This document shows positions 1-9,786 of a stretch of DNA of 32,995 nucleotides, in pieces (the first letter of the stretch is position 1; each line of letters opens with the position of its first letter). Source of the stretch: Acidimicrobiales bacterium. Lineage in GTDB: Bacteria > Actinomycetota > Acidimicrobiia > Acidimicrobiales > SZUA-35. The notes under the pieces were generated by a model. That model saw only the letters and a list, made by a program, of their open reading frames with translations. It was not told the DNA's origin and did no database searches. Position numbers and translations under genes: made by a program. Location: NCBI GenBank assembly GCA_024644005.1, contig JAHELU010000021.1:1-32995 (forward strand). Direction: 5' to 3'.

Positions 1-965
1 TCGGCCAGTGCGGTGAGGGCGCTGGCATCGAAGACCGTGGGCACCGTCGTCTCGGCCCGGTAGCGGACCACCTCGTCGGCGGCGGCGGCGCCCACCGGCA
101 GGCCAGGACCGACGACGGCGGCGCCGAAGCGGTCCACGTCGGCCAGCACGTCGGCGACCCAGCTGTCGGGCACCGGGTACTCGACCGTCTCGACCGAGCC
201 GATCCGCCCCGATCGGTGCGGATCACGACCAGGAACCGACAGCGCGACATAGCCGGCGCCGGCCCGGAGGGCAGCGGTGGCGGTGAGGGTGGGGGCTCCG
301 GTCATTCCCGGGCTGCCACCCACCAGCCGGACGGCATGGCGCCACTTGTGATCATCGGCCGACCGGCGGGGCCAGCGTCGACCGACGTCGGCCGGCCCGA
401 CGAGGTGGATCGTGGCTCGAGAGCAGTCGAGCCCGATGTCGGCCACCCTGATCTCCCCGGCGTGGGACCGGCCGGGCCCGAAGAGCAGACCCGGCTTCCG
501 TGCGGCGAACGTGACCGTGGCATCGGCTCGCAGCGGGCGACTCCTCAGCTCCCCGGTCAGCCCGTCGACACCGGATGGGATATCCACCGCCAGAACGGGG
601 GTGTCGCCGACATCGAGCGGCAGCCGCCGGCAATCGAAGTCGCTCCGGAGCCCGGTCCCGAAGCAGGCGTCGACGACCAGGTCGAAGTCGGTTCGGGCCT
701 CGGTGGTGTCCCCCTGCCGCCCGATGTCGTACACCGAGCAGCGGGCCCCCCGCCGCTCCAGGTGACGGACCGCGGCGCGACCGTCTGCGCCGTTGTTGCC
801 GGGACCGGCCAGCACCGCGATCCGCTTGCCGTACAGGGACCGCCCGAGCAGGTCGATGGCGGCTCGGGCCGTGGCCCAACCGGCCCGCTCGATCAGCTCG
901 GCCACTGGTTCGGGGGCGTCGGCGTCGATGGCCGCCATCTCGGTGGGGGTGACGATGGGCTCCAT
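1..965 (-). CDS. nnr: Bifunctional NAD(P)H-hydrate repair enzyme Nnr (partial, 3' end beyond window)
   Basis: The minus frame from ATG at 965 is open to the window edge, giving about 321 residues. Residues 1-200 form a YjeF-N type NAD(P)HX epimerase domain, with the nucleotide-binding motif GPGNNGADG (res 54-62), DACFGTGL (99-106) and DIPSGVDG (128-135). From HKWRHAV (206) and VGGSPGMTGA (215-224) the sequence continues into the ribokinase-like ADP-dependent (S)-NAD(P)HX dehydratase domain, which the window edge cuts. The family epimerises and dehydrates hydrated NADH and NADPH, a housekeeping metabolite-repair role in the cytosol. The start overlaps the stop of the upstream gene by one base (TGATG), suggesting translational coupling. 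Nnr often sits near acpS in bacteria, which fits this context. The usual GG of the loop is GA here. Confidence 0.93.
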   Translation of the reverse strand, partial: MEPIVTPTEMAAIDADAPEPVAELIERAGWATARAAIDLLGRSLYGKRIAVLAGPGNNGADGRAAVRHLERRGARCSVYDIGRQGDTTEARTDFDLVVDACFGTGLRSDFDCRRLPLDVGDTPVLAVDIPSGVDGLTGELRSRPLRADATVTFAARKPGLLFGPGRSHAGEIRVADIGLDCSRATIHLVGPADVGRRWPRRSADDHKWRHAVRLVGGSPGMTGAPTLTATAALRAGAGYVALSVPGRDPHRSGRIGSVETVEYPVPDSWVADVLADVDRFGAAVVGPGLPVGAAAADEVVRYRAETTVPTVFDASALTALA

Positions 966-1582
966 CAGATCAGCCGGTCGAGCACGTCGCCGAGGACGCC
1001 GTCTTCGAGGTGGGTGGCGCCGATCAGTGTCAGACCGTTGATCACCGTCTCGGTCCTGGCCCATGCCAGCACCTGCTGGGCCTGATCTCGCTTCCCGGCC
1101 CAGGCCGGCCCGTCCAGACCGTGGACCACCACGGTTGCGAGGTGGGCTGCGCCAGGGCCGTCGAGCTCGGCCAGCCACGGTTCCAGCCAGCGGACCATCG
1201 GGGCGCGATAGCCGACGAGCACGCCCAGCACCACCTCCGGCGTGAACGGCGAAGGGTGCTCCCCCGGGCTGCGCATCAGCGTCTCCAGCCACCAGGCGTC
1301 CAGCACCTCCTCGATGGCGGCCAACCGCTTCGACGACCACCGGTGCCGGCCGAGCCGCTCGGTCACCGACGCCGCATCCTCGACCGTCAGCCGATGGTCG
1401 ACGGTCAGCTCGAGCAGGCGAGGGGTGGCAGCGGCGAGCTCCCCACGATCGGCTCTGGCGATCACGGCGTCGAACGCCAGCTCCGGGAACAGCCCGTAGT
1501 CGTCGGCCAGCACTCGCCAACTGGCGACCAGGGCCCGGTCGAGTCGGATGCTGCGAACCGGGGGCGGGGACGTGTCGCTCAC
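965..1582 (-). CDS. Hypothetical protein between acpS and nnr
   Basis: A 205-residue protein with a GTG start (1582), 18 nt downstream of the acpS stop and overlapping the nnr start by one base, so it is almost certainly cotranscribed with both. I do not recognise the family. It looks soluble and mostly helical, with no signal peptide or membrane segment. It is rich in Leu, Ala and Trp (WSSKRLAAIEEVLDAWW around residues 82-98; VRWLEPWLAEL around 130-140). No catalytic motif or metal-binding cluster is evident. The tight gene packing on both sides supports that it is real. A lineage-specific protein is likely; its position alone does not assign a function. Confidence 0.8.
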   Translation of the reverse strand: MSDTSPPPVRSIRLDRALVASWRVLADDYGLFPELAFDAVIARADRGELAAATPRLLELTVDHRLTVEDAASVTERLGRHRWSSKRLAAIEEVLDAWWLETLMRSPGEHPSPFTPEVVLGVLVGYRAPMVRWLEPWLAELDGPGAAHLATVVVHGLDGPAWAGKRDQAQQVLAWARTETVINGLTLIGATHLEDGVLGDVLDRLI

Positions 1583-1600: not shown

Positions 1601-2056
1601 CTAGTCGGACGGGGCCGCCGGCCCCGCATCGTCCTGCCGGCCATCAGTCGGTTCACCGGTTGCGTCACCAGTCGGTCCCTCCTCGGTCCCGAGACCTGCC
1701 ACGAAGACCTGTGCGAGGTGCTCGCTGTGGCTCATCGTAATCAACCAGCTGTGGATTCCCCGTTCCCGGGCTCGGACGGCGGCCCGACCGGTCAGATGGA
1801 GCGTGGGCTGGCCGGACGGGAGCCGGACCACCTCGATGTCGGTGAAGTCGGCGCCGCCGAGACCCGTCCCGAGCGCCTTCAGCACCGCCTCCTTCGCTGC
1901 GAACCGGGCTGCGTAGCGCTCGGCCGGATCGCGACGCCGCTCGCAGTACGCTTGCTCGCTCTCCGTGAAGACCCGGTGGACGAGACGGGGCTGGCGATCG
2001 ATGACGGTCCGCATCCGGTCGATGTCGACCAGGTCGTTGCCGATGGCCACGACCAC
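1601..2056 (-). CDS. acpS: Holo-[acyl-carrier-protein] synthase AcpS
   Basis: AcpS transfers the 4'-phosphopantetheine arm of CoA to the conserved serine of acyl carrier protein, activating fatty acid synthesis. The protein shows the family's N-terminal strand and Mg-binding motif IGNDLVDIDR, then FTESEQAYC and the signature RYAARFAAKEAVLKALGTG, where the Glu of AAKEA is the second metal ligand. The frame is open further upstream, but homology begins at VVVAIGNDLV, so I chose GTG at 2056 (alternative GTG 2050). The protein is 151 residues against about 120-130 usual. The excess is a Gly/Asp/Glu-rich C-terminal tail (about 27 residues) with no recognised domain. It lies 62 nt after the glmS-like stop in the same operon. 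Confidence 0.93.
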   Translation of the reverse strand: MVVAIGNDLVDIDRMRTVIDRQPRLVHRVFTESEQAYCERRRDPAERYAARFAAKEAVLKALGTGLGGADFTDIEVVRLPSGQPTLHLTGRAAVRARERGIHSWLITMSHSEHLAQVFVAGLGTEEGPTGDATGEPTDGRQDDAGPAAPSD

Positions 2057-2118: not shown

Positions 2119-5100
2119 TCAGCGCTCCATCCACCGTTCGGCAACGTCGGAGATGGGGGCGGTCAGCAGGTCGACGGTGGTGATCTCGGCCAGCAGGTCC
2201 TCCCGGAAGCTCGGCTCCCGCTCGGTCACCACGGCCACCAGCTGCCGGTAGCGGTTCCGGTAGCCCTGGAGCACCGTCCTGGCCACTGCCGCCCCGAGGT
2301 CGTCGTTGAGCCGGACGTGGCACAGGGTCAGCCCGGTGGTCTGGGCGTCCTTGACCTCGGGCACGATCAGCACCACCCGCCCGTCGGTCCCGACCGTGAC
2401 GAACGGCTCCCGCTCCACCGCCACCCTGCGCTTGGTGCCCCGCAGGGTCGGGTCCCTCTCGACCCGGGAGGCGATACCGGCGGCGACGCCGCCCTTGTCG
2501 ACCACATGGAGCTGGGCCCCGTTCTCGGGGTTGCCCTGGAGCCGGTAGCGGGTGTAGCCGGTGACCTCGGCCACCGCCGGGGTGATGGCGGCGAGGGTCC
2601 GAAGCGCCGGGTAGCTCAGCCGGTCCCGGGGGCACCCGGTGGCCAGCACGTCCTGGATCAGGCCGGCCTGGAGCAGGCTCTCGTCGGCCCGGCTGATCCC
2701 GACGGTGACCGTCTTGGCCTGGTGCTTGATCGCGTCCACCGGTCTCGTCAGCTCCTCGATCGCTGCGGTCAGGGCGAGGGCCAGGTCGTCGACGACGACA
2801 CCGGGGGTACCGACCTTGCCGAACTCCTGCTGGTAGGCCTCGATGGGGACCGCCCCGGTGGCGAACCGGAGCAGGGCCGACACACGGGTGGCGGTCGATG
2901 CGTCGAGGTGACCGTTGTAGGAGCCGGCCCGCAGCCCGTCGAAGAACTGACCAGCGTGGGGCGAGAGATCTCGTCCGAAGCGCTCGAACCAGTCGTCGGT
3001 GGTCTGGCCCACGTAGCTCTCGATCCGCCCCCTGGCCTCCCGCAACGGGCGGGCCGAGCCGTCGATGGCCAGCGCGGCCTCGTAGCCGAACAGGTGGCCG
3101 ACGACGGTGGACAACACGAAGGCCAGCTCCGGGTGGACCTCCGGGACGGCGATGACGTCCAGGGCGGCCGAGAACCGGTTCTCACCCTCGGTGGCGACGA
3201 CGACGGGAGCCGCCTTGTGGGCCCGGAAGATCGCCACCTCCTTGGCGACGTCGTCCGCATTGGAGCCGACCAGCCCGGCGGCGCAGACCAGGATCAGCGG
3301 CTCGGAGGAGAGGTCGATGTGCTTCTTGTCCTCGGTCACGTCGCAGGCGATCGACTTGTAGCACAGCTCGGAGAGCTTGATCCGCAGCTCCTTGGCCGCG
3401 ATGTGGTTCGTCCCGTTGCCGACGATCGCCCAGTACCGGCGGCTCGGCGCGTGGCGGCCGGCCGCCGCCGCGATCTCCGGCCGCTTGGCCAGCGTGGCCA
3501 CCATCGCGTCCGGCAGGTCTCGCAGCCCGGCCAGGATCGCCTGCCGCTCGTGGTGCTCGACGGTCGCCCCGGGGACGAGCTGGGCGAGGCCGTCCGCCAG
3601 CAGGAACCCCGCCGCGATCTGGGCGTAGAACGCCTTGGTGGAGGCCACACTCATCTCCACATCACGCCCGTCGGACGTGTAGAGCACACCGTCCGACTTG
3701 TCGACCAGATCGCTGCCCCGGCGGTTGACGATGGCGATGACCCTGGCCCCTCGGGAGCGACACAGGTCGATCGTGCGGTTGGTGTCGGTGGTGGTACCGG
3801 ACTGGCTGACCGCCACCACCAGGGTGTCCGACATGTCGTCCCGCAACCCGAATCCCGACAGCTCCGTCGCCGTCCTGGCGTCGACTCTGACCGGGGCGTC
3901 GCCGAGGGCGGCGTCGATGGCGGCGGCGATTGCCAGGCCGGCCACCGCTGCTGTTCCCTGGCCGATCACGTGGATCTTGGTCACGTGCCCTGCCTCGAGC
4001 GACTTGCCGACAGCCTCCGAGATCGTCTCGACCGGCAGGTGGACCGTCAGCTCACCCTCCTGCTCCACGAGCCGACCCCGCAGCGTCTTGCGGAACGACG
4101 TCGGTGATTCGCTGATCTCCTTGAGCAGGAAATGCGGAGCGTCACCCCGGTCGATGTCCCGGGTGGTGACCGACGGCTTCTTCCACTCGTCGTCGCCGAT
4201 CGGCAGGACCGTGCCGTCGTAGGCGATCCGGGTCACGCCGGTGCGGTCTCCGGCCAACCTGCCGCTGAGGCGGATGATCTGGCCCTGGCTGGCAGTCGGG
4301 TTGTCCGGGTCGGCCGGGGTCTCGCCGTCCATGCGGAAATAGACGTCGGAGTCCTCGACCACGCCGTATGGCTCTGAGGCCACCACGAAGCAGTCCTCGG
4401 CAAGGCCGACGTAGACCCCCTGGCCACTCCCCCGGAGGGCCAGATGGACGTCTTCGGGCTCCCGGGCGGTGCTGATGCCGATGGCCACCGAGCCCTCGAA
4501 CTGGGCGACGGAGGAGCGGACTGCCTCGTCGAGATCGAGCCCGCTGGCCAGACCCCGGCTGACCAGGGTGGGGATGACCTTGGCGTCGGTGGTGATCTCG
4601 GCCGCGATCGACAGGCCGTCGGCGGCGATGAGGTCGGCGAAGTTGTCGACGTCGCCGTTGAGGGCGGCGGTCACGTATGGCCCGGGCTCGCCAGACACCT
4701 CGTCGCTGTTGACCGGATGGGCGTTCGGCTCACTGATGATGCCGACGGAAGCCCAGCGGGTGTGAGCCAGAACGGTGGCCTGGGCGGTGTCGGCCGTCAA
4801 CGCCCGATGCAACAGCTCGTCGGCGGCGATCGCGGTCCGCATCGCTGCGGTGTTGTCGCCGAGCTCACCGATCTCGGCCGCCGCCTTGTAGACGAAGCCG
4901 AGGTTGCCGTTGGCCACACGGACCGACCGGTCGACGAACAGCGGATCGCCGATCCTGCCCGCGAGCAGGCCCCTCACCGCTTCGGTATCGAGGTCGAGGC
5001 CGTGATCCCGGACCAGGACGTGGAGGCCGGCGGAGTCACGGCCCCGGACCTCCAGGCGGTCGAGGTTGCTCAACGCCTGCTGGATGCTGAACATGGCGGC

Positions 5101-5541
5101 CAGCCTGGCGCCCGAGATGTCGGAACCGCCGAGCTCGACCACCTCCCGAGCGGCCCGGAGCCGGTCGCGATCCAGGGCCCACAGCGCGTCCTTGAGCTCG
5201 ACCAGCGCGCCGTTCACCGCTTCGAGCGCCGGCTGGTCGTCACCCTGCGATTCGAGATGGGCCTCGACGAGGTCGACCCCGGCGCCGAGGGCGTCCACCG
5301 TCGCGGCCACGGTGGTGACGAAGGCGGGGGCCGACAGCATGGCTCGCAGCCCCGCCTCTCCTCGCAGCTCCCGGTCGATGGCGGCCAGCGCGACCCCCGT
5401 GGCGTGGAGGCTCTCGGCCAGGTCGGGCTGGCCGGGCTCGGGGAATCCGGCGTGGATCCGCTCGAGGTCGGCGGACAGCCGATGGACGTCGGGCAGGGCA
5501 CGCTCGGTGCGCTGTCTGACGATGGCGATGATTCCACACAT
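2119..5541 (-). CDS. glmS: GlmS-like glutamine--fructose-6-phosphate aminotransferase, greatly enlarged (1140 aa)
   Basis: It probably makes glucosamine-6-phosphate from fructose-6-P and glutamine. The N-terminal nucleophile Cys2 is present (MCGIIAIV), but residues 9-155 are a helical insertion before the usual segment RLEVRGRDSAG (162-172). Further glutaminase motifs are AHTRWASVGIISEPNAHP (259-276), LNGDVDNF (294-301) and ITTDAKVIP (316-324). The first SIS domain (about 469-660) has HFLLKEISESP, AVSQSGTTTDT and SVASTKAF. The second (about 695-835) has VGNGTNHIAAKELRIKLSEL. Residues ~840-1140 are an unassigned extension. Typical GlmS is about 610 residues. SD GGAGGGAG lies upstream of ATG 5541. 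Adjacency to glmM supports an amino-sugar role. The usual HNG of the glutaminase is LNG here. Confidence 0.85.
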   Translation of the reverse strand: MCGIIAIVRQRTERALPDVHRLSADLERIHAGFPEPGQPDLAESLHATGVALAAIDRELRGEAGLRAMLSAPAFVTTVAATVDALGAGVDLVEAHLESQGDDQPALEAVNGALVELKDALWALDRDRLRAAREVVELGGSDISGARLAAMFSIQQALSNLDRLEVRGRDSAGLHVLVRDHGLDLDTEAVRGLLAGRIGDPLFVDRSVRVANGNLGFVYKAAAEIGELGDNTAAMRTAIAADELLHRALTADTAQATVLAHTRWASVGIISEPNAHPVNSDEVSGEPGPYVTAALNGDVDNFADLIAADGLSIAAEITTDAKVIPTLVSRGLASGLDLDEAVRSSVAQFEGSVAIGISTAREPEDVHLALRGSGQGVYVGLAEDCFVVASEPYGVVEDSDVYFRMDGETPADPDNPTASQGQIIRLSGRLAGDRTGVTRIAYDGTVLPIGDDEWKKPSVTTRDIDRGDAPHFLLKEISESPTSFRKTLRGRLVEQEGELTVHLPVETISEAVGKSLEAGHVTKIHVIGQGTAAVAGLAIAAAIDAALGDAPVRVDARTATELSGFGLRDDMSDTLVVAVSQSGTTTDTNRTIDLCRSRGARVIAIVNRRGSDLVDKSDGVLYTSDGRDVEMSVASTKAFYAQIAAGFLLADGLAQLVPGATVEHHERQAILAGLRDLPDAMVATLAKRPEIAAAAGRHAPSRRYWAIVGNGTNHIAAKELRIKLSELCYKSIACDVTEDKKHIDLSSEPLILVCAAGLVGSNADDVAKEVAIFRAHKAAPVVVATEGENRFSAALDVIAVPEVHPELAFVLSTVVGHLFGYEAALAIDGSARPLREARGRIESYVGQTTDDWFERFGRDLSPHAGQFFDGLRAGSYNGHLDASTATRVSALLRFATGAVPIEAYQQEFGKVGTPGVVVDDLALALTAAIEELTRPVDAIKHQAKTVTVGISRADESLLQAGLIQDVLATGCPRDRLSYPALRTLAAITPAVAEVTGYTRYRLQGNPENGAQLHVVDKGGVAAGIASRVERDPTLRGTKRRVAVEREPFVTVGTDGRVVLIVPEVKDAQTTGLTLCHVRLNDDLGAAVARTVLQGYRNRYRQLVAVVTEREPSFREDLLAEITTVDLLTAPISDVAERWMER

Positions 5542-5592
5542 AGGTACTGCTCCCTCCGATTCGGAGCTCGGCCCGGCCAGGGCGGATCAAGA

Positions 5593-5859
5593 CTACCGGA
5601 CAGATCTCGACCGTTGAGCGGCGGCTCGGTCGACGGTGACCGCGGTGGGCGGCGTGTCGCCCTCCCAGTGTAGGGACCACCGGGCTGCCGACCCCGGCGT
5701 GAAATCTACCCATGCCGCCCGACAAGCAGCATGCTGTCCGGTCCCCCACGGCACGCCATGGTGTCCGTTCTTGTGGTGTCCGTGGCCTCCGTGGCCTCCG
5801 TGGCCTCCGTGGCCTGTGGCCGATGAGCGGCCTGCGAGGCCGACCCAGCGACCGGTCAC
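5593..5859 (-). CDS. Possible small His/Gly-rich ORF between glmM and glmS (doubtful)
   Basis: An 88-codon frame begins with GTG at 5859, overlapping the glmM stop as GTGA, the pattern of a translationally coupled gene. It runs through a 9-bp tandem repeat that codes GHGGHGGHGGHGHH, a His/Gly-rich stretch of the kind that can bind metal ions. The rest resembles no family I know. It ends only 51 nt before the glmS-like start, and a candidate promoter for glmS lies inside it. The opposite strand is also open here, so the frame may be a by-product of GC-rich repeat DNA. Confidence 0.2.
   Translation of the reverse strand: MTGRWVGLAGRSSATGHGGHGGHGGHGHHKNGHHGVPWGTGQHAACRAAWVDFTPGSAARWSLHWEGDTPPTAVTVDRAAAQRSRSVR
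5667..5672 (-). promoter_or_regulatory. Candidate -10 element upstream of glmS-like gene
   Basis: Minus-strand hexamer TACACT, the same sequence as the candidate -10 of rplM, lies 126 nt upstream of the glmS-like start. I find no good -35 at 16-18 nt, so this is only a possible internal promoter. Confidence 0.2.
5781..5815. repeat. 9-bp tandem repeat (about 3.9 copies) in glmM-glmS intergenic region
   Basis: The unit CGTGGCCTC is repeated three times perfectly (5781, 5790, 5799), followed by a partial fourth copy. It lies in the 314-bp gap after the glmM stop, which otherwise holds the doubtful His/Gly-rich frame, a candidate -10 and a 10-bp palindrome CAGCATGCTG near 5727-5736. Copy number could vary between strains by slippage. 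Confidence 0.9.
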
Positions 5860-7187
5860 GCTGTGTCGAGCGCCTTCCTCGCGGCCTCGACCAGTTGAAC
5901 ACAGGCCTGCTGGGCGACGTCGGCGTCGACGTGCTCGACCATGACCCGCAGGAGCGGCTCGGTGCCCGAGGCCCGCACGAGGACCCGGCCGTCCGACCCG
6001 AAGCCGGCCTCGACCCGCTCGACCTCGTCGGCGATGGCGGCGGCGGGATCGGCCTCGCGGCGAGCCAGGCGGACGTTCTCGAGCACCTGGGGGACCCGGG
6101 TCATGATCCCGGCCGCCAGCTCCGAGAGCGGCCGGCCCGAGCGGACCACCACGTCGAGCAGTTGGACCCCGGTCAGCACGCCGTCACCGGTCGACGCCAG
6201 ATCGCGACAGATCACGTGCCCGGACTGCTCGCCCCCGAGCGACAGTCGGCGATCGTCGAGCGCCTCGAGCACGTAGCGGTCGCCGACGGCAGTCGACACG
6301 ACGTCGATGCCCCGCTCGGCCATCGCCCGGTGGAAGCCGAGGTTCGTCATCACCGTGACCACCACCGTGTCGTCCCGGAGCCGGCCAGCGGCCGACCAGT
6401 CCGCAGCCAGGATGGCCAGGACCCTGTCGCCGTCGACCACTCGACCGTTGTCGTCGACGGCGATCAGGCGGTCGGCATCGCCATCGAAAGCAAGACCAGC
6501 GCTGGCCCCGACCTCGACGACGCTGGCCTGCAGGGCCGCCGTATCGGTCGAGCCGAAGCCATCGTTTATGTTGGTACCGGTCGGCCGGTCGCCGATCACG
6601 ATCACGTCGGCTCCGAGGCGACGGAACGGTTCGGGGCCGAGCTCCGACGCGGCGCCGTTGGCGCAGTCGATGACCAGCCGGGTGCCGGCCAGGGCCTCAG
6701 CGCCGACCGATCCGGTTATCAGGTCGATCCAGCCGTCGACGCCACCCGATGGCCGGCGTCCGCCCACTCGATCGGCGACACCGGGGGCGTGGAGCTCGAG
6801 CTGCTCCAGGTACCGCTTCTCGATCGTGGCCTCCACGTCGTCCCGCAGCTTGCGCCCACCGGCCGCGAACAGCTTGATGCCGTTGTCGGCATACGGATTG
6901 TGGGAGGCCGAGATCATCGCCGCCGGTGCGTCGCGGTCGACGGAGGCCCAGGCCACCGCCGGGGTCGGCACGACGCCGAGATACTCCACGTCCGCCCCGG
7001 CCGAACAGATGCCGGCGGTCAGGGCCCCTTCGAGCATCGGGCCGGAGCGCCGGGTATCGGCGCCGATCACGAACAGCTCGCCGCCGAGCACCTCGACAGC
7101 GGCCCGACCGAGCGCCACGGCCACCTCTGCGGTCAGCTCGGTATTGGCCACGCCCCGGATGCCGTCTGTGCCGAAATGGAGCGCCAT
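5856..7187 (-). CDS. glmM: Phosphoglucosamine mutase GlmM
   Basis: It interconverts glucosamine-6-phosphate and glucosamine-1-phosphate, the step after GlmS toward UDP-GlcNAc and peptidoglycan. At 443 residues it has normal family length. The four alpha-D-phosphohexomutase domains are visible: FGTDGIRGVAN (5-15), the catalytic phosphoserine loop ISASHNPYADNGIK (Ser95), the Mg-binding loop AFDGDADRLI, and the C-terminal phosphate-binding RASGTEPLLRVMVE. It starts with ATG 38 nt after the rpsI stop and is followed, after 314 nt, by the enlarged glmS-like gene. This pairing couples amino-sugar synthesis to the rplM-rpsI ribosomal unit. Confidence 0.97.
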   Translation of the reverse strand: MALHFGTDGIRGVANTELTAEVAVALGRAAVEVLGGELFVIGADTRRSGPMLEGALTAGICSAGADVEYLGVVPTPAVAWASVDRDAPAAMISASHNPYADNGIKLFAAGGRKLRDDVEATIEKRYLEQLELHAPGVADRVGGRRPSGGVDGWIDLITGSVGAEALAGTRLVIDCANGAASELGPEPFRRLGADVIVIGDRPTGTNINDGFGSTDTAALQASVVEVGASAGLAFDGDADRLIAVDDNGRVVDGDRVLAILAADWSAAGRLRDDTVVVTVMTNLGFHRAMAERGIDVVSTAVGDRYVLEALDDRRLSLGGEQSGHVICRDLASTGDGVLTGVQLLDVVVRSGRPLSELAAGIMTRVPQVLENVRLARREADPAAAIADEVERVEAGFGSDGRVLVRASGTEPLLRVMVEHVDADVAQQACVQLVEAARKALDTA

Positions 7188-8358: not shown

Positions 8359-8733
8359 CGTCGCCGTGGGAGAACCTGGCCGGGGTCGGCGTGACGTCGA
8401 GAAGTGGCCGCTCGGCGGCCCGGCCGCAGCCCCGGTCGGACCCCGGCGGGCTCGTGCGGGCTCGTCGATCGGCGCAGCGCGTGGCCAGTGGTGGGTGGCG
8501 TCGGGGCCGCTACTCGTCGCCGCGCATGGGCCGGCCGACCCGACGCTGACGCGTCCACGGCCGCTTGCCGGCCTGTCGAGCCGGGCGCAGGACCAGTGCG
8601 GCGGAGCTGGGCGTGTCACCGGGCTTGGGTAGGCTTGGTCGCACGGAGTTCGACTGGGCCCCTCCGCTTCGGGATCAACCGAAGAGCACGCCTCGGGCAG
8701 TCCCCCTCGACGGAGATTCATCGGGAGACGCTC

Positions 8734-9786
8734 ATGACCATCCGGCTCGTCGACCAGCCGCCACATCGACTCTGCGATCAGCTGAGACACATCGCTGCCA
8801 CCTGGGCCAGAAGCCAGCACCAGCTCGTGTTGCTCGCAGCACGGTTCGCCGACTCGTCGGAATGGGCGCTCGAAGGCGCCCCGACCGCCGCCCACTGGCT
8901 TGCCCAGGTTGCCGACGTCGAACCGTGCACCGCCCGGGAGTGGATCCGGATCGGACGACGGCTCCGGGATCTGCCCGCTACCGCGGACGCGTTCGCCGAC
9001 CGGCGGCTGTCGTATTCGAAGGTGCGAGCGCTCACCCGTATCGCCATGCCAGACAACGAGGCCGAACTCGTGCGGCTGGCCGAGCGCGTGCCGGCGGGGG
9101 CGTTGCGCCGGGCCCTCGGCGCATGGTTGACCGAGAACAGCTCTCCTGAGGAGCTCGACGCACACCATCAGCGGCAGCGCTCGGTGAAGTGGCGGAACGA
9201 AGCCGACGGCATGGTCACGTTCACGATGCGGCTCCCGCCGCTCCTCGCAGGCAACTTCATCGCCGCGCTCACCGCTGCCGTCACGCGACGTCGATTGGCA
9301 ATCACGGAGCGTGGGAATCACGCGTCCGCGGGCGGTTGGCCAACGCTGGCACAACAGCAGGCCGACGCGCTCGCCGCGTTGCTCGCAGACGGGGCGGGTG
9401 ACATCAAGACCGAGATGATCGTGCACCTCCGGGGCGACGGCGCCACCCTCGACGACGGGACGCCGATTCCCGGCAGCGTGGTCGAGCGCATCGCCCCTCG
9501 GTCGTTCCTCAGAGTCCTGCTCCACGACTGTGAGCGGCGGCCGATCAACGCCTCCTACCGCCGCCGCCATCCCAGCGATCGCCAGAAGCGGGTGGTCAAG
9601 GAGCGAGACCAGGTGTGCGTCGATTGCGGCCGGGACCAGTTGCTCGAGTACGACCACAATCCACCGTTCAGCCAATCGAGGCGAACCATCGTCCAAGAGC
9701 TGCAGCTGCGATGCGCACCCTGCCATCAGCGACGGCACGACGGCGACGGGACTCCGGCAGGCGCTCAGTCAGACGACGAGTCGTAG
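8734..9786 (+). CDS. DUF222 / 13E12-repeat family protein with C-terminal HNH endonuclease domain
   Basis: A 350-residue protein of the DUF222-HNH type, abundant in actinobacteria and present there in many divergent copies; its biological role is unsettled. The helical DUF222 region covers about residues 10-270. The HNH fold follows: CVDC (295-298), YDHNP with the putative catalytic His308, and CAPCH (327-331) completing a four-Cys zinc site. I chose ATG 8734 because GGGAGA precedes it and family similarity begins there; the frame stays open to 8404 but that part looks non-coding. It is the only plus-strand gene between truA and rplM, and its last 22 bp overlap the convergent truA. That suggests a gene inserted into a conserved housekeeping cluster. 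Confidence 0.88.
   Translation: MTIRLVDQPPHRLCDQLRHIAATWARSQHQLVLLAARFADSSEWALEGAPTAAHWLAQVADVEPCTAREWIRIGRRLRDLPATADAFADRRLSYSKVRALTRIAMPDNEAELVRLAERVPAGALRRALGAWLTENSSPEELDAHHQRQRSVKWRNEADGMVTFTMRLPPLLAGNFIAALTAAVTRRRLAITERGNHASAGGWPTLAQQQADALAALLADGAGDIKTEMIVHLRGDGATLDDGTPIPGSVVERIAPRSFLRVLLHDCERRPINASYRRRHPSDRQKRVVKERDQVCVDCGRDQLLEYDHNPPFSQSRRTIVQELQLRCAPCHQRRHDGDGTPAGAQSDDES

Follow-up and report, generated by a model that had tools for sequence, protein, structure and literature searches.

Synthesis of peptidoglycan and the amino sugars begins with a universal enzyme, glutamine:fructose-6-phosphate amidotransferase (GlmS). In the ordinary enzyme, the tail bearing Lys603 is a free C terminus that closes the sugar site; sugar binding orders this tail, which provides Lys603 and contributes to the ammonia channel. 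The subunit is 589–716 residues long, and its catalytic residues are Cys1 in the glutaminase half and Glu488, His504 and Lys603 in the isomerase half (PMC9272926). Inhibition by UDP-GlcNAc has been reported for eukaryotic but not for bacterial GFAT (PMC7000685), and the known control of bacterial GlmS comes from separate factors; in Bacillus subtilis, for example, the UDP-GlcNAc-binding protein GlmR has been proposed to control GlmS post-translationally (PMC7525490).

Here we describe a GlmS of 1140 residues encoded in a window of 32,995 nucleotides, the whole stretch analysed, from an Acidimicrobiales genome (4.46 Mb, 314 contigs, 83% complete). Its sequence marks the gene product as a divergent GlmS in which all catalytic residues named for the enzyme are present, enlarged by three added modules (Table 1). 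The explanation that best fits the evidence overall is that this long form is probably a housekeeping glucosamine-6-phosphate synthase, an enlarged GlmS that occupies the usual genomic slot in roughly half of the class genomes sampled. In open-access papers, the literature covered here, we found no description of a long-form GlmS.

Results

A divergent GlmS with an intact catalytic core

A first-pass annotation of the window had proposed a GlmS-like protein of 1140 residues in which Cys2, the glutaminase motifs and both SIS domains can be read. This proposal holds: the 1140-codon open reading frame is present on the minus strand, hmmscan against Pfam detects GATase_6 and SIS domains in it, alignments recover the individual motifs, and the nearest solved structures by sequence search are E. 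coli and human GlmS/GFAT. Identity to standard GlmS is only 28–30%, and the whole protein scores 211.7 bits against TIGR01135 (cut-off 418; other long forms about 190–240) and 227 bits against NF001484 (cut-off 381), so the curated criteria do not call the window's long form a GlmS.

Table 1. Features of the long-form GlmS locus; coordinates are those of the window
Feature	Coordinates	Strand	Evidence
acpS (holo-ACP synthase), downstream in long and standard operons	1601..2053	-	Pfam ACPS E 2.7e-20; synteny
Long-form GlmS gene, whole, 1140 aa	2119..5541	-	ORF and translation; GATase_6 and SIS; full-length homologues
Appended domain with likely PAS/GAF-like core, residues 949-1140	2122..2697	-	AlphaFold2 pLDDT 93; best fold match 7jsr
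Putative internal catalytic C-tail with Lys943 (E. coli Lys603), residues 933-948	2698..2745	-	Motif, shuffles, structural alignment, invariance
Added helical module between SIS2 and catalytic tail, residues 829-932	2746..3057	-	Absent from standard GlmS; helices 831-932; conserved
SIS domain 2, residues 656-828, Glu725 and His741 (E. coli Glu488, His504)	3058..3576	-	Alignments; invariant 60/60
SIS domain 1, residues 464-655, sugar-phosphate site SQSGTT, VAST	3577..4152	-	Pfam SIS E 1.7e-17; structural match to GlmS isomerase domains
Remaining glutaminase domain, residues 144-460	4162..5112	-	GATase_6 match 254-390; Arg73, Trp74, His86, Asn98, Gly99, Asp123 equivalents invariant
Added helical module after strand 1, residues 10-143	5113..5514	-	AlphaFold2 helices 19-138; family-conserved
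Cys2 nucleophile and first glutaminase strand, residues 1-9	5515..5541	-	MCGI invariant 60/60; strand 3-9
glmM (phosphoglucosamine mutase), upstream	5856..7187	-	Four PGM_PMM domains; synteny with rpsI, rplM

Conservation was counted in an alignment of 60 long-form sequences. Identical in all 60 are the equivalents of the E. coli glutaminase residues Cys1, Arg73, Trp74, His86, Asn98, Gly99 and Asp123, of Ser347, Gln348, Ser349, Thr352, Ser401, Glu481, Lys485, Glu488 and His504, and of the tail residues Ala602, Lys603, Val605 and Thr606. In long-form numbering, the residues by which we judged the glutaminase (Cys2, Arg262, Trp263, Asn295, Gly296 and Asp319) and the isomerase (Ser579, Gln580, Ser581, Thr584, Ser634, Glu725, His741 and Lys943) are each found in 60 of 60 sequences, and for the isomerase there is a fold match as well. 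Substitutions in sugar-binding residues and a second GlmS of standard length had been named beforehand as evidence against a GlmS role. The sugar-site residues are conserved throughout the 60-row alignment, and no such second GlmS was found in the source genome (83% complete), where the other match to an amidotransferase appears to be PurF.

Some positions do differ from E. coli GlmS in a fixed or nearly fixed way: Tyr28 has become Arg, Thr76 Ser, His77 Val or Ile, and His97 Leu. The last of these converts the glutaminase HNG into LNG, a change already spotted in the first-pass annotation and almost universal in the family (Leu in 59 sequences, Cys in one). The chain is also two residues shorter after the His504 equivalent, again in a fixed or nearly fixed way. 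Together these changes could mean that the substrate or the rate differs.

An AlphaFold2 model of the full long form, built on the 60-row alignment, has a pLDDT of 86 and a pTM of 0.76. It aligns with human GFAT-1 over 595 residues (Z 39.5, rmsd 5.4), and its isomerase half alone aligns with GlmS isomerase domains at an rmsd of 2.3–2.9 over about 335–360 residues. We conclude that the long form very probably works like GlmS. The SIS region is also matched by NagB-II proteins, which would suit a glucosamine-6-phosphate deaminase, or another SIS isomerase, with a vestigial glutaminase. That reading is very unlikely: NagB-II reaches 57 bits against 227 bits for GlmS, and the N-terminal Cys and the glutamine-binding residues, unexpected in a vestige, are retained in 60 of 60 sequences.

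An internal catalytic tail

The annotation had further described about 300 residues after the second SIS domain as matching nothing recognizable. The extra residues are there, but they are not wholly without a match, as residues 935-948 correspond to the catalytic C-tail of GlmS. The internal tail, VDAIKHQAKTVTV, resembles the standard GlmS tail, VDKPRNLAKTVTV; in standard enzymes of the class the C terminus is VDKPRNLAKTVTVE or a similar sequence, and residues 935-948 of the long form are VDAIKHQAKTVTVG. A class-standard tail scores 31.7 at this site (the runner-up site in the long form scores 13.9), and only 7 of 20000 shuffled class-standard tails reach that score anywhere in the protein. 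The E. coli tail is a weak test as a query, with 110 of 20000 shuffles reaching its score. Within the C-terminal 300 residues, conservation is strictest around the internal tail.

The model agrees with this placement. In several structural alignments the last model residues aligned, 940-950, face residues 598-608 of the E. coli enzyme or 674-681 of the human one, which puts this region at the position of the GlmS C-tail; the structural alignment of the internal tail reaches GlmS residues 603-608. This is support rather than proof, because the loop at 939-952 is modelled with low confidence. Local hhalign stopped short of the tail and global hhalign set the end of the profile at 842, so the assignment draws on the MAFFT alignment, the motif test and the structural alignment. 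With the tail at 935-948, about 100 helical residues lie between it and the second SIS domain and about 190 follow it.

The long form thus has its tail at residues 933-948 of 1140, whereas GlmS has a free C-terminal tail and 589–716 residues in total. Because of this feature and a score below the cut-off, the long form is a separate branch of the GlmS type, outside the curated TIGR01135 equivalog.

Three added modules

A helical insertion directly after the first strand, put at about 145 residues by the first-pass annotation, is borne out by the AlphaFold2 model, with helices up to residue 138, and by the homologues, which share it. The model runs from strand 3-9 through the helical insertion to about residue 143 and then into the usual first helix (144-163), which gives an insertion of about 134 residues. 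This is the least conserved part of the long form, and most of its invariant residues (E107, D118, W121, D126 and R127) lie on a long helix at 106-138. The first-pass annotation had suggested that an insertion here could form a regulatory lid or a partner-binding module. Searches of Pfam, NCBIfam and PDB sequences returned no convincing family for it. Designed coiled coils were also matched, a similarity that we put down to helix content and set aside.

The C-terminal region (residues 839-1140), predicted separately with AlphaFold2, has a pLDDT of 93. A Foldseek search of this region against the PDB gave no match under E 0.001, the top entry being the 180-kDa glutamate dehydrogenase of Mycobacterium smegmatis. 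A second aligner placed the same structure, 7jsr, first (Z 8.8, rmsd 4.6 over 161 residues, chain 173-359, 12% identity). The matched segment is N-terminal in the dehydrogenase, where sensor domains have been proposed. Its score stands out from those of GAF, PAS, Cache and fRMsr chains, which level off at Z 5.6–7.0. The C-terminal domain is thus likely to hold a PAS/GAF-like core, and the modest fold match suggests that it may have a sensing role. The domain has no family match in Pfam, NCBIfam or PDB sequences, nothing meaningful appeared in a viral fold library, and no relative of the domain was found on plasmids or viral contigs. Open reading frames of 432–759 residues that weakly matched its profile read by sequence as methylmalonyl-CoA mutase, and we regard these matches as chance. 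R972, D973, R1026, K1037, D1053, R1055, R1097 and E1107 are invariant in the domain, and many of its invariant residues are charged or glycine.

The added modules could also be structural rather than sensory, with the protein making glucosamine-6-phosphate as usual and the extra parts helping the enzyme to oligomerise or to form a scaffold with GlmM or another partner. PAS/GAF folds are frequent dimer interfaces, no ligand is known here, and the N-terminal insertion is a poorly conserved helical bundle. The C-terminal domain, however, retains many invariant charged and glycine residues, and its direct tether to the catalytic tail exceeds what a scaffold would need. We regard a purely structural role as a serious possibility, although somewhat short of an even chance.

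Conserved operon position and gene exchange

Full-length relatives with 53–82% identity occur in most searched genomes of the same genus, family and order, and the same architecture recurs in dozens of genomes. A species-genome collection yielded 80 long-form loci, mostly from Acidimicrobiia or Actinomycetota; the long form is conserved across Acidimicrobiia and present in some other Actinomycetota. These relatives bear on the concern that a fragmented, 83% complete source assembly might have produced a misassembled fusion or a misread frame. An artefact is extremely improbable: misassembly is excluded by a homologue set that shares the full-length architecture and whose added parts also contain invariant residues.

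All 36 long-form loci of the class with long flanks show the order rplM-rpsI-glmM-[GlmS], 34 of them with acpS downstream, and the same order is seen in 17 of 20 standard-GlmS loci of the class. In three congeners, G008, G010 and G006, rplM-rpsI-glmM is followed directly by acpS and the GlmS slot is empty. In the 196-base glmM-acpS gap of G008, one frame gives MCGIVAVVRQRATRSQPTSEALLSAGESLGAVDAE and another gives PISEVAER-stop, corresponding to the start and the end of a long form whose middle is gone (compare MCGIIAIVRQRTERALP and PISDVAERWMER). Of the long-form codons, this deletion scar (L193:4635-4764) retains about 35 from the start and about 8 from the end; the corresponding gaps of G010 and G006 hold no long-form remnant. 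A standard GlmS is present elsewhere in both G008 and G010; the two copies are 93% identical to each other, about 42% identical to E. coli GlmS and 41–43% to the standard GlmS of the class, with the caution that the G010 copy lies on a 4.3-kb contig and that G008 has an estimated contamination of 7%. In G006, which is 88% complete, neither a long nor a standard GlmS was seen.

Other features of the locus are recorded here as observations. A 205-residue protein with no Pfam match (965-1582, minus strand) adjoins acpS, and relatives in the same family keep this neighbour, including those that lost the long GlmS. The gap between glmM and the long GlmS (5542-5855, minus strand) is 314 bases long and contains short GGCCACGGA repeats and matches no Rfam family; in most relatives this gap is 12–250 bases. 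No Rfam family reaches threshold anywhere in the window, so the glmS ribozyme is absent from it. The opposite (plus) strand carries an HNH endonuclease-like reading frame (CVDCG...CAPCH...) at 8404-9786, in the interval that separates rplM from rplQ.

Near-complete mutual exclusion with standard GlmS

Among 296 genomes of the class, all at least 90% complete except the source genome, 135 have only the long form, recognized by its C-terminal domain, at least 150 have only a standard GlmS above the cut-off and none has both, an exclusion to be read as a pattern rather than a probability because related genomes are not independent. Eleven genomes fall in neither group; since the standard genomes were tallied at 153, three further ones must be among these 11 or among unlisted genomes. 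Six long-form genomes from beyond the class were checked as well, and five of them lack a standard GlmS above the cut-off.

Both forms occur together in two genomes outside this sample. In G366, from another class (L158, L159), the standard GlmS adjoins glmM and acpS and the long form lies elsewhere, an arrangement that points to horizontal acquisition of the long form or to a mixed assembly. In the complete genome of Aquihabitans sp. G128, an extra standard GlmS lies between unrelated genes (L199:8720-10534), possibly as an intermediate of enzyme exchange.

Exclusion, synteny and exchange together point to the long protein doing the job of the standard GlmS, and as comparative evidence they argue strongly that it serves the cell as glucosamine-6-phosphate synthase. 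One could instead propose a GlmS-like amidotransferase acting on another keto-sugar phosphate, with glucosamine-6-phosphate coming from a different route; the fixed glutaminase-site substitutions, the shorter loop after His504 and the low identity to standard GlmS would fit such an enzyme. However, the sugar-phosphate residues are unaltered, sister lineages have a standard GlmS at this operon position, the two forms are mutually exclusive and a standard GlmS is found where the long gene was lost, all of which make a different substrate unlikely.

In a quick tree of the core, midpoint rooted and with the careful search unfinished, 26 long and 26 standard sequences are split by one fully supported, very long branch. 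The long form is therefore no recent, local offshoot of the standard enzyme, despite sharing its operon slot; its origin may lie either in ancient divergence at that position or in a replacement there.

Discussion

If the long form is the glucosamine-6-phosphate synthase of its host, as we favour, Cys2 would free ammonia from glutamine, and the double-SIS half would aminate and isomerise fructose-6-phosphate through Glu725, His741 and Lys943. The Lys943 tail would be held between modules 829-932 and 949-1140, tethered on both sides, such that a ligand or partner on the C-terminal domain could shift the ordering of the tail and change both activities. The position of this lid might in turn set the flux into UDP-GlcNAc from within the protein, and the N-terminal bundle may support oligomerisation or the same regulation. 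Allosteric control of an active-site lid is plausible, and we give the regulatory reading of the added domains slightly less than an even chance. Equally tentative is its fullest version, in which a PAS/GAF-like domain behind a Lys603-type lid opens and closes the sugar site and ammonia channel on a metabolite signal, as an independently evolved bacterial counterpart of eukaryotic GFAT feedback in the sole GlmS of about half of the class.

These findings have several implications. A long-form GlmS would account for many Acidimicrobiia genomes that score as lacking glmS. The genomes that carry the long form only, both forms, or a scar and a standard GlmS would make up a natural series of enzyme exchange in an essential pathway. 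The family also provides a concrete system for testing how extra domains bring an essential enzyme under control, here with the lid in mid-chain; built-in regulation of this kind, if true, has no description that we found in the open-access literature.

Compared with described systems, the long form shares with GlmS/GFAT (TIGR01135; E. coli 1JXA, human GFAT-1 6R4E) the N-terminal Cys glutaminase, the double-SIS isomerase, the equivalents of Glu488, His504 and Lys603, the C-tail motif and the operon place beside glmM. It differs in its 1140 residues, three added modules, internal C-tail and LNG in place of HNG. Like eukaryotic GFAT-1, it is an enlarged GlmS with added features on a common core fold; in GFAT-1, however, a UDP-GlcNAc site on the isomerase domain takes part in regulation together with the interdomain linker (PMC7000685), and there is neither a PAS/GAF-like domain behind the tail nor an insertion after strand 1. 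The M. smegmatis 180-kDa glutamate dehydrogenase (7jsr, PMC8175468) is likewise an enzyme of nitrogen metabolism enlarged by proposed sensor domains, but it is a different enzyme with no detected sequence similarity, and its sensor segment is N-terminal. Finally, whereas B. subtilis GlmR is a separate regulator protein, the long form carries its added domains within the enzyme.
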